Under the pieces are notes generated by a model. It did not search any database, had not been told where the DNA came from, and saw only the letters and a program-made list of their open reading frames with translations. Both the position numbers and the translations under genes were made by a program. This document shows, one piece after another, positions 34,000 through 44,505 of a stretch of 64,000 nt of DNA. The stretch is taken from positions 660,672 through 724,671 of the forward strand of contig CP030759.1 in assembly GCA_003290465.1 (NCBI GenBank), in the 5' to 3' direction. The DNA is from Candidatus Sumerlaea chitinivorans (GTDB taxonomy: Bacteria; Sumerlaeota; Sumerlaeia; Sumerlaeales; Sumerlaeaceae). Positions within the stretch are counted from its first letter, which is position 1. Each line of letters begins with the position of its first letter.

Positions 34000-35580
34000 G
34001 TGAAAAATCTCTGCCGCATGGCACTCATGGTTTGTGTTCTCGCAGCTTGGAGTGTTCCAATGGTTGGGGGCTCCGCTCGCTTGAGCGAGAGCGTTCAGGA
34101 GATTCGACTGGCAAACGGTTTTACGGCGCTTGTAGTGCCTCGACACCAAGCCCCTTTCTTCTCCGCGGTGATCTATGTAGACGCGGGAGGAGTGGATGAA
34201 GAACTGGGCGAATCCGGTAGCGCGCATTTGCTCGAGCACATGGCTTTCAAAGGAACGCCTTGGATCGGCACTCGAGATTGGGCTTCGGAGCGCAAGCTGC
34301 TAACAGAAATTGAACAGATCGCTGAAGAAATCGTTGCGGAAAACACAAAGGCGACACCCGATCAGGCAACTTTGGCTCGGCTGCGAGCCCGCCTAAGCGA
34401 ACTGCAAAAAGAAGCTGCACAATTCGTTGTTCCAAACGAGTACGACCAAATTATTACGCGGGCCGGGGGGCAGGAAATCAATGCTACGACAAGTAAGGAC
34501 TGGACAAACTACTTCATGACCTTGCCATCGAACCGCCTCGAACTGTGGGCTATGATGGAAAGTGAGCGTCTCACCTATCCGGCGTGGCGCGAGTTCTATA
34601 AGGAACGAGATGTGGTTGCGGAAGAACGCCGAATGCGCACCGAGGACTCCCCAGCCGGAAGATTGTATGAGGAGTTTATCGTGGGTGCGTTCAAGGCCCA
34701 TCCATACGGAACCCCAGTTATCGGGTGGATGAACGATCTTGAAAACCTTACCGTTCGGCGCACAGCAAACTTTTACCACCGTTACTACCGTCCTGACAAT
34801 ATGGTGGCTGTCCTCGTGGGCGATCTGGATTCCACTCAAGTGAAACCGATTCTTGAGAAGTACTTCGGCTCGCTTCCGAAAGGGGCGCAGGCAACAAGGC
34901 GTTTGCCAATCGAACCGCCACAAAACAGCTTTCGAAAGATCGAAGTACCATTCGACGCACAGCCGCAAGTGCTCATCGGCTGGCACAAGCCGACTTACCC
35001 TGATCGCGACGCCTACGTGTTTGAAGTGCTTCAGTACCTGCTAACGGCAAACGGCCGTTCAGCGCGACTTTTCGAGCGGCTCGTGAAAAAGGACGGGCTT
35101 TGTGAATCTGTCGAGTGTTTTACCGCACCGGGGGACAAGTACCCGAACCTCTTTTGTATCTGGATGACTCCGCGGGCTCCTCACACTGCTCAAGAGGTCC
35201 AATCCGTGCTCTGGGAGGAACTCGAACGGCTCAAACGTGATCCGGTGACGACAGAAGAGCTCGAGAAAACAAGGAACCAAATCGATGCTTCATTCCTACG
35301 AGAATTAGAATCCAATCTGGGGTTCGCACGGCGTCTTGGGGCCTACTATCTTCTGACTCGCGACGCCCACGCGTTGGACAAATTCCGAGACGCGATGAAA
35401 TCCGTCACAGCTGAAGAAATCCAAGCCGTGGCACAACGATATTTCACTCGGGACAACACTACCGTCGCTGAAATCGTCCCCAAATCCCGCTTATCCGCAA
35501 CTCCCAAGGTTGAGGAGGCGCGAGACCGCGCTTCAGCACCACTGACAACGTCTACTAAACCCAGTTCGTCCGCAAAGTGA
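34000..35580 (+). CDS. M16 zinc peptidase, catalytic subunit, exported
   Basis: This 526-residue exported metallopeptidase has a signal peptide (about 1-26), then the inverted zinc motif H76-L-L-E79-H80 in SGSAHLLEHMAFKG. The third ligand Glu is in VVAEERRMRTEDSP (about 208). About 50 residues of helical insert lie between them, more than in typical M16. RYYRPDNMVAVLVGDLD and the C-terminal M16_C domain follow. Only one M16 N/C pair is present, so it needs a partner: the next gene supplies the non-catalytic half. The start is GTG 34000 with GGGAG upstream. It probably degrades periplasmic peptides. Confidence 0.93.
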   Translation: MKNLCRMALMVCVLAAWSVPMVGGSARLSESVQEIRLANGFTALVVPRHQAPFFSAVIYVDAGGVDEELGESGSAHLLEHMAFKGTPWIGTRDWASERKLLTEIEQIAEEIVAENTKATPDQATLARLRARLSELQKEAAQFVVPNEYDQIITRAGGQEINATTSKDWTNYFMTLPSNRLELWAMMESERLTYPAWREFYKERDVVAEERRMRTEDSPAGRLYEEFIVGAFKAHPYGTPVIGWMNDLENLTVRRTANFYHRYYRPDNMVAVLVGDLDSTQVKPILEKYFGSLPKGAQATRRLPIEPPQNSFRKIEVPFDAQPQVLIGWHKPTYPDRDAYVFEVLQYLLTANGRSARLFERLVKKDGLCESVECFTAPGDKYPNLFCIWMTPRAPHTAQEVQSVLWEELERLKRDPVTTEELEKTRNQIDASFLRELESNLGFARRLGAYYLLTRDAHALDKFRDAMKSVTAEEIQAVAQRYFTRDNTTVAEIVPKSRLSATPKVEEARDRASAPLTTSTKPSSSAK

Positions 35581-35591
35581 GGGCCGATTCG

Positions 35592-37175
35592 ATGAAACGA
35601 GCGCTGCGCATCACACACTTTCTGCCACAAGTTTGGTGCGCGATTGCGATGCTTCTCTTTGTCATCGCTCACGTTGAAAGTAGCTTTGCCACCAAAATCG
35701 CTAAAAGTGGGCAAAGTGTTTCAGAAAACGATCCTTTCCCGCCGGCTCATCTGAGTGGGACCTCCGTCACGCTGGAGCGAGGATCCTACCGTCTTCCTAC
35801 CCGTCCAGAGCAATTGCCAGATCAGCCGTTTCGGTACACCGTGCCACAGGTAACTCGAACCACGATGTCAACAGGTCTGCGCGTGTTCTACTATCCGAGC
35901 CGCGATTTGCCGATAGATTACTTCATCGTGGTCATCAAGGCTGGGACGCGGTACGATCCAGCAGAAAAGGTCGGGCTTGCCGATCTGACGGCGCGAGTCG
36001 TGCGAGCCGGGGGGGCAGGCAATCGAACGGGGGACGAGGTGGATGCTGAGTTGGAAAAGCTAGGCGCGGAGCTGTCTGTTTCGGTTGAGCGTGACTATAT
36101 CAGATTTCAACTCTTCACACTTTCCGAGAACTCAGAAAAGGCTCTGCAAATCTTCCGGGACGTTCTGATGGCGCCTCGCTTTGAAGAAGAGAAGTTCACG
36201 ACCGAGAAAAATCTCGCACTTGAGCGCTTGCGCCGGCAAAATGACGACCCCGCGGAGGTCTCGCGACGTGAATTCCGAAAGATCGTGTACGGCACCACGC
36301 ATCCGCTTGCCCGCACGCCCACCCGCGAGTCGCTCGCTTCAATCAGCCTCGACGACCTGAAGAGTTTCTACCGAGCATATTACCACCCAGCTTCGGCGTG
36401 GGTAGGTGTCGTTCATCACCGAGAGTTACGCGAGACAAGCCGCACACTGGAACAGTTCTTTTTAGACTGGCGAGGGGAGCAGGTTCCTCACCTGCCACAA
36501 ATTGTGGAGGAAACGCCGAATTCTCCCAGCAAAGTTGGGCGAGTCTACTTTTCTTGTAAACCCGGTGCTCAAATGCAGATACGCATGGGACATTTTGGAC
36601 GTAGACGAGATCCTGCAGACCAGCCAGTCGTGGACATCCTAAACAATCTTTTTGGTACCGGCGGATTTTCCTCACGACTCATGAAAGTTGTCCGAACCCA
36701 GCATGGTTTTGCGTATGGCGTGGGTGGAGGTGTATTTGAAGACGATCCGGTTGGCCTCTTTGTGGCAGTAGCAAGCACGAAGACCACGAACACCACCGCA
36801 GCCCTCGAAGCCATGCGATCTGTCATCGTAAGCATGTTGGAGGAGAAACCCTCTCCTGCGGAGCTGGAAACAGCGAAGCGAGATGTCCTCTACACATTTG
36901 CCACGCGCATGGATAATCCACGTGAAATCGTCTGGCAGTGGCTGCTCCACGATTTTTATGGCTTCCCCCCTGAGTATTTGCTCCACTATCCGGACCGCGT
37001 CGGCGCAGTGACCGCTGATGACGTTTTTGCGTGTGCACGTCGCTACATAAAGCCAAAGGAAATTCGTTGTTATCTGGTCGGTGCGTGTGATGCGCTTCGC
37101 GAGTCGTTGGCTGCCGAGTATTCGATAGAGGAGTGGCCTCTAACCAATCTTGCTGACGAAACCACGACGCACTGA
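35592..37175 (+). CDS. M16 peptidase-like protein, non-catalytic subunit
   Basis: This 527-residue exported M16 homologue keeps the fold (VFYYPSRDLPIDYFIVVIKA, YYHPASAWVGVV, GGFSSRLMKVVRTQHGFAYG) but lost the zinc site. HxxEH is replaced by ADLTAR in GLADLTARVV. The Arg/Tyr pair in RTQHGFAYG, which anchors substrate in the inactive half of heterodimeric M16 proteases, is retained. GAGGG at 35579-35583 overlaps the stop of the upstream gene and lies 8 bases before ATG 35592, so the two are translationally linked. A GTG at 35577 is possible. Confidence 0.93.
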   Translation: MKRALRITHFLPQVWCAIAMLLFVIAHVESSFATKIAKSGQSVSENDPFPPAHLSGTSVTLERGSYRLPTRPEQLPDQPFRYTVPQVTRTTMSTGLRVFYYPSRDLPIDYFIVVIKAGTRYDPAEKVGLADLTARVVRAGGAGNRTGDEVDAELEKLGAELSVSVERDYIRFQLFTLSENSEKALQIFRDVLMAPRFEEEKFTTEKNLALERLRRQNDDPAEVSRREFRKIVYGTTHPLARTPTRESLASISLDDLKSFYRAYYHPASAWVGVVHHRELRETSRTLEQFFLDWRGEQVPHLPQIVEETPNSPSKVGRVYFSCKPGAQMQIRMGHFGRRRDPADQPVVDILNNLFGTGGFSSRLMKVVRTQHGFAYGVGGGVFEDDPVGLFVAVASTKTTNTTAALEAMRSVIVSMLEEKPSPAELETAKRDVLYTFATRMDNPREIVWQWLLHDFYGFPPEYLLHYPDRVGAVTADDVFACARRYIKPKEIRCYLVGACDALRESLAAEYSIEEWPLTNLADETTTH

Positions 37176-40680: not shown

Positions 40681-43600
40681 GTGATGAAAACCTTCAGTTT
40701 TGTACATCTGCATGTTCACAGCCACTACTCGCTTGAGGATGGCATCGCGAGTGTTGACGAGCTCGTGGCTCGGGCAGCCGAGCTCGGAATGGAAGCGCTC
40801 GCTCTCACCGATCACAATTCCCTTGGCGGAGCAGTCGCATTTACTCAGGCCTGCCGACGCCACTCCATTAAGCCAATCTTAGGTGCGGAGCTGGATGTTC
40901 CTCCCCTAAGTGTGCGCGTGCGGGGGGATGTTTACTTCCGGTTACTTTTTCTTGTTGCGGACCCACATGGCTATGAAAACCTCGTAAAATTAATCACCAT
41001 TGCCCAGTCGAATCGGACATCCGCCATTTTCCCGATTACGGCGGATGTACTTGCCGAGTATGCCACTGGCCTTGTGGTTTTAGCGGGAGGACGGGCTTCG
41101 GAGCTCTATTACCTTCTCGACCATGGCAACGAGCTCGAAGCAGACGCTCACCTTGCTCACCTCGTGCGGATTTTTGGCAGCGAGAATGTATTCGTCGAAC
41201 TTCAGGACTTTGGTCAGCCACGCGATGCGAAGGTCAATGCCTTGCTTGCTGGGTTGGCCCGCCACCGAGCCCTTCGTTTGGTCGCAACCAATGACGTGCA
41301 TTATGTGCGTCCCGACGACGCCATTTGCCATGACCTTTTGAAAGGGGAACCTGCACCGCAAACCCTACCCATCACCCCGCCCTCACGGTGTATCACCACT
41401 CGCCATCTTGCTACTGCTGCAGAAATGAGTGCAAAGTTTGCCTCGTTTCCCGAGGCCCTCAGTGCCACCATCGATATTGCTGATCGCTGTAATTTTAAAC
41501 TTGCGCTGAACCGGGACCGATTTCCCGTCCACGAATTTTGTCGTGGTTTCGATGCAGACGCTTTTCTTGGCGATTTGACCTTTCGGGAAATCCACCACCG
41601 CTTCCCCGAAACAACCCCGGAGATCAAGTTGCGACTCGACGAAGAATTTCAGGCCATCCGCGAATTATCGCTTGCGCGCTATTTTCTATTCCTTTGGGAA
41701 ATCGCCCAATTCTGTCGCTCTCAAGGCATTGTTCTGGGGGCAGGACGAAGCGAACTTCTCTCTAGCCTAACTGCCTACACCCTGGGCATCACCCAGGTGA
41801 ATCCTCTCGAGTTCAAATTTCGCCCACCTACTTTCTCCGCAAATCAAGCCTTGACCCAAGCCATTGAGATCGAAGTCCCGCTGCGCCACGTGCCAGCGGT
41901 TCTGGCCCACTTGCAGGAGACTTTCGGTCGTCATCGGTGTTGTTGGGCGGGTGCCTACGAAAAAATGAAGAAAGAAGACCAGCTGCGACGTAAAATTGCT
42001 GAGTGGTATGGTTGCCGGCCGAAAGATCTCGAGCGTCCCTCGGCGGAAATTGTCGCCCGTCTTGAGGGTTCGCCGCTCCCGCCCCTCCAAGAACTCTTTC
42101 CTGCCCACGTGAATGAGGTCCAATTGCCTCATCCCGCCGTCACGGCCTATCTCATGCAGCGGTTGGGGCAGCGCTTCAGTCATTTGCGCCAACTTCAGGA
42201 TGAGCTTGTTGTCTCGGGAGAAAGCTTGGATCGGCTGGTGCCTCGTATCTCTGTCAATGGCGACGAGGTGAGTCAGATGGACGCCGCCGCCCTCAGCGCA
42301 CTCGGAATCCCCCGTTTGGTTGTCGTTCATTCTGACATGCTCGACATTCTTGATAAGGCCTCCGAGCTTGTGCGCGCCGAGGAAAATCCGCGGTTTGATC
42401 CCCAGCGAATCCCCTTGGATGATGACGATACCTACGCCCTCTTTGGGCGCGGAGCAACCACAGGACTTGGCCCTTTCAATTCCATCACACTGAAATCGCT
42501 CCTTCGTAGGCAGCGCCCCACCACGTTCATGGGTCTGTTCAAGGTAAAGACGAACGATCCCACGAACCAAGCGGATATTCAGACGCATGTGGCACATTGC
42601 CTAATTGCCTACCGATGCGCCTACATCAAAGCCCATTATCCGCTCAGTTTCATGACCGCGCTCTTATCCCACTACCTCATCAATCGGCTCCCGTTGGAAA
42701 TCCCATTACGCGAGGCGCGGCAAATGGGGCTGCGCGTCCTTCCGCCTCACATCAACCGCAGCGTCTACGAGTTCTCGATTGAAAATCGCGCGATCCGGAT
42801 GGGGCTTGGGATGATCTATGGGGTCGGCCGCAAAGTCTATGCGGAGATTGAGCGGGCGCGCCGGGGTCGCGAATTCACCGATCTTCATGATCTTTGCCAG
42901 CGCACGGAACCGTCACTTGTCAAAAGTGACGTCTTGGCCAACCTGATCAAGGCCGGCGCGCTCGACTGCTTTGAAATGAGCCGGGCACAGATGCTTCGAT
43001 TGGTCGAAGAGCATGGCAAGCTTCTTCGAAAGTCCGACAGTGCCTCACTCTTCGATTCCGTCGGCGAAAACGCCGGGATCGCTGAGCTTGTCCCACCCGA
43101 GGAACCCGAGCTACCGCTCGCCCACCGCCTCCAACTCGAAGTGGCGGCAACGGGCATCACCATCTCGCAGGACTTAATGGAATGCTACCGCGACGAGATT
43201 CGCCGATGCCGTGCCATTTCGCCTCGTCAACTTTCGCGTCGCATGGTTCGGAGCGAACGCTACGTCGTCGGATTCGTGGATCACATTGAAGAAGAAAGTC
43301 CCCTCGCCGAAAAAGGGGATCAGGTCCTGATAGATTTGGAAGGGTATGTTGTTACAATGCCCACCCGCTTGGCAGCGCATTTTGCGCCTGTCTTATCCTC
43401 CAAGCAGCCCGTGATGCTGGGCGGACAGGTGGACTGCCGCGGCGATGAAGTCTTTCTCCGCGCCATGTCCGCATTTACTCTTCCAATGATCGCAGAGATG
43501 GGCGCCAAAGTACTCGCACTCGAGCTGAACTTGGCGAACGAAGATTCGCGCACTCTCCGCATGCTTGCCCGGATTGCGGGGCAGTACCGCGGAGGCAAAA

Positions 43601-43836
43601 CGACGCTACGAATCCAGAATAGCCCCCCTGGCGCACTCTCGAGATTCCTGCACTTTCTGGTCGAGAGGACCCATGTGTTTTTCTGTCCCCCGTTCTATGA
43701 CGCGTTACGGAAACTTCTCCCAGAGAAGTGCATTCGCATTGTGCCAGCACCCGATACGGATCCCATGCTCCTTCACGTCTTAGAGCCTACGGTCTTTCCG
43801 AAGCCCGAACGGAATAACTTAGGTGCCTCGGATTAG
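40681..43836 (+). CDS. DnaE-like protein: intact PHP domain, degenerate polymerase
   Basis: This 1051-residue protein is homologous to the DNA polymerase III alpha subunit. The PHP domain (1-280) retains HLHVHSHYS (H9, H11, H13), LTDHN (H45), GAE (70) and VATNDVHYV. The palm is degenerate. GPGRGSAAGS is GAGRSELLSS (353-362). The position of the catalytic DxD reads E396-I-E398 (AIEIEVP). The third catalytic Asp position appears to be V547. The fingers, with YQEQVM and the GFNKSHS region, are missing: TTFMGLF (614-620) leads almost directly to CLIAYRCAYIKAHYP. The helix-hairpin-helix region (685-765, VLPPHINRSVYEF and IYGVGRK) and an OB-like part (850-930) remain. It therefore cannot be the replicative polymerase. 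Start is GTG 40681 or ATG 40684. Confidence 0.85.
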   Translation: MMKTFSFVHLHVHSHYSLEDGIASVDELVARAAELGMEALALTDHNSLGGAVAFTQACRRHSIKPILGAELDVPPLSVRVRGDVYFRLLFLVADPHGYENLVKLITIAQSNRTSAIFPITADVLAEYATGLVVLAGGRASELYYLLDHGNELEADAHLAHLVRIFGSENVFVELQDFGQPRDAKVNALLAGLARHRALRLVATNDVHYVRPDDAICHDLLKGEPAPQTLPITPPSRCITTRHLATAAEMSAKFASFPEALSATIDIADRCNFKLALNRDRFPVHEFCRGFDADAFLGDLTFREIHHRFPETTPEIKLRLDEEFQAIRELSLARYFLFLWEIAQFCRSQGIVLGAGRSELLSSLTAYTLGITQVNPLEFKFRPPTFSANQALTQAIEIEVPLRHVPAVLAHLQETFGRHRCCWAGAYEKMKKEDQLRRKIAEWYGCRPKDLERPSAEIVARLEGSPLPPLQELFPAHVNEVQLPHPAVTAYLMQRLGQRFSHLRQLQDELVVSGESLDRLVPRISVNGDEVSQMDAAALSALGIPRLVVVHSDMLDILDKASELVRAEENPRFDPQRIPLDDDDTYALFGRGATTGLGPFNSITLKSLLRRQRPTTFMGLFKVKTNDPTNQADIQTHVAHCLIAYRCAYIKAHYPLSFMTALLSHYLINRLPLEIPLREARQMGLRVLPPHINRSVYEFSIENRAIRMGLGMIYGVGRKVYAEIERARRGREFTDLHDLCQRTEPSLVKSDVLANLIKAGALDCFEMSRAQMLRLVEEHGKLLRKSDSASLFDSVGENAGIAELVPPEEPELPLAHRLQLEVAATGITISQDLMECYRDEIRRCRAISPRQLSRRMVRSERYVVGFVDHIEEESPLAEKGDQVLIDLEGYVVTMPTRLAAHFAPVLSSKQPVMLGGQVDCRGDEVFLRAMSAFTLPMIAEMGAKVLALELNLANEDSRTLRMLARIAGQYRGGKTTLRIQNSPPGALSRFLHFLVERTHVFFCPPFYDALRKLLPEKCIRIVPAPDTDPMLLHVLEPTVFPKPERNNLGASD

Positions 43837-43875
43837 GATATCCGCGAAGACCAAACTAACTTGCGAGGTGTGCGC

Positions 43876-44505
43876 ATGAAGAAGAGTTTCCTACTTGCGC
43901 TTCTGATTGGGGCTGGGCTTGTCGGTGCCGCCCCCCATGCTCAGGCGAAGCCCTATGCAATCTTCCATACGTCCAAGGGCGACTTCATTGTTGAACTTCT
44001 TCCGGAGAAAGCTCCGAAGACCGTCGAGAATTTCATTGGTTTAGCCACCGGACGCAAGACGTGGAAGCATCCAGCTACGAACGAAGTCATGACCAGCAAG
44101 CCGCTCTACAATGGCACGGTGTTCCATCGCACGATTCCGAAATTTATGATTCAAGGTGGCGACCCGCTGGGGAATGGCACGGGCACTCCCGGCTACGAAT
44201 TCGAGGATGAGTTCAGTGACCTGAAGTTCGACGCCCCCGGTTATCTTGCGATGGCCAACCGCGGGCCAAACACGAATGGCAGTCAGTTCTTTATCACAGT
44301 TGCCCCGACTCCACACCTGAATAACCGTCACACCATTTTTGGCAAGGTGGTGTCGGGCATGGATGTCGTGGTGGCGATCTCCGAGCTGCCAAGCGAACCC
44401 GGCACAGGCCGAGCCCTGAATCCGGTCAAACTCAACAGCGTCGAGATCGTCGACTCGTTGCCCTCCCCAAAACCAGCTGCTTCGGACGCGGCAACGACGA
44501 AGTAG
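43876..44505 (+). CDS. Exported cyclophilin-type peptidyl-prolyl isomerase
   Basis: This 209-residue protein has a signal peptide (about 1-24, GAAPHAQA-KP) and a cyclophilin domain. It shows IFHTSKGDFIVELLPEKAP, TVENFIGLATG, NGTVFHRTIPKFMIQGGDP (the active-site FHR and QGGD), YLAMANRGPNTNGSQFFIT and LNNRHTIFGKVVSGMDVV. It accelerates prolyl isomerisation in the periplasm. GAGGTG lies before ATG 43876. The TTG at 43861 is a less likely start. It follows the DnaE-like gene by 39 bases. Confidence 0.93.
   Translation: MKKSFLLALLIGAGLVGAAPHAQAKPYAIFHTSKGDFIVELLPEKAPKTVENFIGLATGRKTWKHPATNEVMTSKPLYNGTVFHRTIPKFMIQGGDPLGNGTGTPGYEFEDEFSDLKFDAPGYLAMANRGPNTNGSQFFITVAPTPHLNNRHTIFGKVVSGMDVVVAISELPSEPGTGRALNPVKLNSVEIVDSLPSPKPAASDAATTK

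Follow-up and report, generated by a model that had tools for sequence, protein, structure and literature searches.

What becomes of a replicative DNA polymerase subunit once its catalytic residues are gone? The question is posed by a gene of Candidatus Sumerlaea chitinivorans BY40, here called pseudo-dnaE, which lies in the 64,000-nucleotide stretch of DNA analysed in this work (the window; positions 660672-724671 of a single-contig genome of 3,289,105 bp). The two main surveys of C-family polymerases (2013, PMC3919608; 2026, PMC12926913) describe PolC and DnaE1-3, the later one covering the four active groups only. Catalytic Asp residues have been described as absolutely conserved in the family, and the 2013 survey discarded fragments whose active site was not intact (PMC3919608), so a polymerase-dead DnaE would have been filtered out. 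The same survey set aside strongly diverged extra copies of DnaE, termed DnaEX (PMC3919608). A literature search that covered few subscription journals found no polymerase-dead C-family group, and the view of the initial annotation that the gene belongs to no described class agrees with both surveys.

The gene is an uninterrupted open reading frame of 1051 codons that starts with GTG and has ATG (40684) as its next codon. Domain matches are to PHP, DNA_pol3_alpha (positions 3-169 of 260), DNA_pol3_finger (the first 68 of 166 positions) and HHH_6, while the score against the NCBIfam DnaE models falls far under the equivalog cut-offs. The nearest solved structures are the Pol III alpha subunits of Taq, E. 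coli and M. tuberculosis. An AlphaFold2 model built with 27 orthologues as input (mean pLDDT 87.7, pTM 0.83) has a DnaE fold, with Taq Pol III alpha (DnaE) as the top Foldseek match (E 7e-58). Profile matches, solved relatives, the model, Foldseek and hhalign thus agree on homology and on the DnaE domain order, as was first proposed from the PHP-fold, HhH, OB and C-terminal parts. A sequencing artefact or frameshift as the origin of the gene is ruled out, given that the frame is open in the orthologues of more than 30 genomes. The features discussed below are as follows.

40681..43836, + strand: pseudo-dnaE, encoding a 1051-aa DnaE-fold protein (open reading frame, domain matches, AlphaFold2/Foldseek)
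40696..41505, + strand: PHP domain, aa 6-275, with 7 of 9 metal ligands (domain match, ligand alignment)
40939..40941, + strand: R87, replacing a PHP ligand His (alignment)
41089..41091, + strand: G137, replacing a PHP ligand Cys (alignment)
41860..41874, + strand: palm strand A394-I-E396-I-E398, at the place of E. coli D401-F-D403-V-D405 (alignment)
42319..42321, + strand: V547, at the place of catalytic D555 (alignment)
42550..42588, + strand: aa 624-636, site of about 110 missing DnaE finger residues (alignment)
42727..42993, + strand: HhH region, aa 683-771, the best kept part, with 8 of 9 DnaE1-invariant residues (HHH_6 match, conservation)
43039..43056, + strand: SASLFD, aa 787-792, at the place of the DnaE1 clamp motif QxSLF (alignment)
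43195..43770, + strand: OB and C-terminal domain, aa 839-1030, homologous to the C-terminal half of DnaE1 (model, homology)

We first consider the polymerase site. Aligned with the DnaE1 of BY40, the protein reads A394, E396 and V547 at E. coli D401, D403 and D555. The initial annotation was right that the triad is lost, but its register for the first pair was one Asp late, its E398 corresponding to D405. Among approximately 30 orthologues none has Asp at the D403 position, only two sister sequences have it at D401 and a single fragment has it at D555, and no family member has the complete triad. The fingers are truncated as well, although the deletion comprises about 110 residues (108-113) and not the roughly 190 initially proposed: the segment has 119 residues in BY40 DnaE1, 11 in BY40 pseudo-DnaE and 6-27 across the family. 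Of the positions invariant in 38 DnaE1 proteins, BY40 pseudo-DnaE keeps 4 of 31 in the palm and thumb and 0 of 22 in the deleted finger. With no Asp triad and truncated fingers, polymerisation of DNA cannot be expected of pseudo-DnaE, judging from these alignments. One basic residue within the otherwise erased site is altered yet strongly kept: 27 of 30 family members carry Arg (R545, 42313-42315, in BY40) in place of the palm Lys that precedes catalytic D555 by two residues.

The separate, full-length DnaE that the initial annotation envisaged in the same genome was found at about 1441 kb; both this DnaE1 and a DnaE2-like gene at about 1587 kb have intact polymerase sites. Compared with DnaE1, pseudo-DnaE has the same fold and the same order of PHP, palm, thumb, partial fingers, HhH, OB and C-terminal domain; it differs in the absent catalytic triad, the loss of some 110 finger residues and the incomplete set of PHP ligands.

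The family is confined to one class in the genomes searched. A family profile recovered it from 35 of 39 Sumerlaeia genomes, in which it persists as an open frame of about 1050 aa; these include all 20 genomes with a completeness of 90% or more and a contamination of 5% or less. The profile had no match in four genomes of lower completeness or higher contamination, among them G028, in which a fragment is present. No member was found with this profile in 347 other genomes (one of the sister class and 346 of other phyla), with two candidates scored per genome. Among the best 80 matches of a search of genome contigs, which relied on PHP motifs and would overlook relatives with a degenerate PHP site, the Asp triad was absent only in five Sumerlaeota loci, and the other frames read keep it. 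In a phylogenetic tree the family forms one clade (SH-aLRT 100), and the DnaE1 and DnaE2 proteins of Sumerlaeota each form a separate single clade. The tree places pseudo-DnaE with DnaE2, a grouping that may be long-branch attraction. Most simply, pseudo-dnaE is an ancient paralogue that was fixed before Sumerlaeia diversified.

If the protein does not polymerise, it could act through its PHP domain, and the initial annotation had described this domain as intact and the protein as reduced to a PHP enzyme. Active C-family PHP domains bind three metals through nine ligands, HHDHEH[C/H]DH (PMC12926913, PMC3666897). All nine (HHDHEHCDH) are present in each of the 18 Sumerlaeota DnaE1 proteins read, that of BY40 included. 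BY40 pseudo-DnaE keeps seven (H11, H13, D20, H45, E70, D205 and H207) and reads R87 and G137 in place of the sixth (His) and seventh (Cys), giving the pattern HHDHE-R-G-DH; the domain is therefore not intact. By analogy with other trinuclear PHP enzymes, we take these two positions to belong to one metal site. Of the DnaE1-invariant PHP positions (38 DnaE1 proteins), 27 of 38 are kept. None of approximately 28 relatives checked has the full set, and two (L009 and L016) have eight. The ligands are mostly lost in L019-L021 and L025-L033, and the site is also eroded in two members of the window's own family (L011 and L014). Several lineages have an erased site that reads HLGARS or FVPLFCRS instead of FVHLHVHS, with the rest of the protein kept. 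As two ligands are lost here and the site is eroded in several relatives, normal PHP proofreading, or normal trinuclear PHP chemistry, is unlikely for pseudo-DnaE.

The best-surviving alternative, raised already in the initial annotation, is a PHP-dependent nuclease or phosphatase, serving proofreading or end-processing, with an altered metal centre and a DnaE body that finds the DNA. Non-canonical prokaryotic PolX provides a precedent, given that these PHP-bearing polymerases have lost polymerase residues and dNTP-binding parts and act as polymerase-dead PHP exonucleases (PMC9226535). They belong to another polymerase family, however, and their PHP site is functional whereas that of pseudo-DnaE is degraded. 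Five proteins of our family, that of BY40 and four relatives at approximately 35-45% identity to it (L005, L006, L007 and L010), keep the identical seven ligands. This recurrence makes a residual metal-dependent role conceivable, and such a role may exist in these five. Nevertheless, the surveys call the nine-residue set active, no member has it, in several lineages the site is completely erased although the protein persists, and the PHP site of DnaE1 in the same genomes is already complete. A PHP reaction is thus an unlikely function for the family as a whole on the residues present, a stand-alone PHP enzyme as the common function is not supported by the ligand counts, and we regard the nuclease or phosphatase reading as unlikely overall. 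The variant PHP domain of E. coli DnaE (PMC3666897), in which the fold persists as a structural element although metal ligands have been lost, offers a parallel for the domain itself, but E. coli DnaE is an active polymerase.

The genomic context was examined for partners. Neighbours in the window include M16 peptidases, a glycosyltransferase, an L,D-transpeptidase, a cyclophilin and others, and no operon partner of pseudo-dnaE conserved across Sumerlaeia was found. The gene directly downstream on the same strand (43861-44505) encodes a cyclophilin-type peptidyl-prolyl isomerase. Such a gene follows pseudo-dnaE immediately and on its strand in six genomes of the window's family (G000-G004 and G007), with some of the genes overlapping, and it is possible that the two form an operon. 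Elsewhere in the window, two related M16-type peptidase genes form a tandem pair (34000-37172), in an order that is conserved in G001 and G007. A reading as a defence system was ruled out, as pseudo-dnaE has no match among the PADLOC anti-phage defence models.

ImuB, a Y-family polymerase that has no activity, works as a hub bound to the clamp, and pseudo-DnaE might be a similar hub in a mutasome-like translesion complex together with DnaE2 and PolY. In one genome (G005) pseudo-dnaE stands tail to tail with a PolY-DnaE2 pair, and the tree joins pseudo-DnaE with DnaE2, although long branches may be the cause. For the non-catalytic role proposed below, ImuB is the nearest working analogue, in that a polymerase fold is reused without catalysis, although pseudo-DnaE does not belong to the ImuB system. 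Like pseudo-DnaE, DnaE2 (ImuC) is a non-replicative DnaE-type protein present in addition to DnaE1, and its PHP site is degenerate. However, DnaE2 retains its polymerase site, and pseudo-dnaE lies outside the SOS/DnaE2 cassette and occurs without detected DnaE2: a DnaE2 resembling that of BY40 could be found in no more than about 11 of the 35 genomes with pseudo-dnaE, and PolY was looked for and not found in the carrier G002. In BY40 the PolY-DnaE2 cassette (L053, 7725-12682; approximately 1585.5-1590.5 kb) has a perfect palindrome, AGAACAAATGTTCT, just upstream. Boxes of this type were also found in G001 and G005 and, with one mismatch, at the PolY locus of G006, and the palindrome is likely a LexA box of Sumerlaeota. 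No such SOS-like box was found in the approximately 250 bp upstream of the pseudo-dnaE genes examined, where the only match had three mismatches, and no shared palindromic motif upstream of these genes exceeded the shuffled control. The patchy occurrence of DnaE2 and the absence of SOS boxes weaken the case for a mutasome subunit, which we consider improbable.

Two further observations concern the BY40 cassette and its box. The DnaE2-like protein (L053, 8921-12682) has 1254 aa, with extra linker stretches, a degenerate PHP site and an intact polymerase triad. The sole other perfect copy of the palindrome in the genome (L196, 2335580) lies among genes that look by eye like those of a Mu-like prophage.

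The HhH region and other non-catalytic positions are the best conserved in the family and nearly invariant, and BY40 pseudo-DnaE keeps 8 of 9 DnaE1-invariant positions in the HhH region and 4 of 5 after residue 771 (38 DnaE1 proteins). This conservation speaks for a structural or regulatory function. At the place of the clamp motif, which reads QISLF, QASLF or QTSLF in Sumerlaeota DnaE1 proteins, the family has SLFD, TLFD, DLFD, QFFG and similar sequences; the LF type is kept, with F791 retained in 89% of the family, and Gln is kept in few. Clamp binding may be weak or gone, given that the clamp-like motif lacks Gln in most members. A profile search found one beta-clamp gene in BY40. The region after the motif is homologous to the OB and C-terminal domain of DnaE1 (hhalign probability 97, E 1e-10).

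Mean pairwise identity is 30% in the pseudo-DnaE family compared with 52% in DnaE1, and this faster evolution is as compatible with a dispensable or condition-specific role as with a part in the replisome. In a same-genus pair, dN is 0.065 and dS 0.587, and the ratio of approximately 0.11 indicates purifying selection. What has been retained under it comprises the DnaE architecture, the HhH region, the degenerate clamp-motif position (xxLF) and the OB and C-terminal domains. That the gene is decaying without a function that matters, or is a regulator unrelated to replication, would suit the fast divergence and the repeated erosion of sites but is highly improbable for an open frame of about 1050 aa that is kept in 35 of 39 genomes of the class, under this degree of constraint and with the HhH and other positions nearly invariant.

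Hence, we propose with moderate confidence that pseudo-DnaE is a C-family pseudo-polymerase that would serve without catalysis, binding DNA as a scaffold or regulator either in the replisome or on repair intermediates. DNA would be bound by the HhH region, and the xxLF patch could make contact with the beta clamp; the ligand of the OB and C-terminal domains could be single-stranded DNA or else the tau arm of the clamp loader. The protein would thereby occupy or position the active DnaE1, or exchange with it; we infer a role as scaffold, placeholder or regulator around DnaE1, acting by binding.

More tentatively, the replisome or clamp loader of Sumerlaeia might contain a dedicated, constitutive non-polymerising alpha subunit, fixed before the class diversified, that takes up a slot on tau or the clamp and acts there in fork coupling or polymerase exchange. 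To our knowledge this would, if true, be the first non-polymerising alpha subunit among C-family polymerases and a counterpart of the Y-family protein ImuB. Pseudo-DnaE would extend the idea of the pseudo-polymerase, as known from ImuB and non-canonical PolX, to the bacterial replicase family, and makes testable what role a replicative polymerase subunit may have when it is no longer able to copy DNA.
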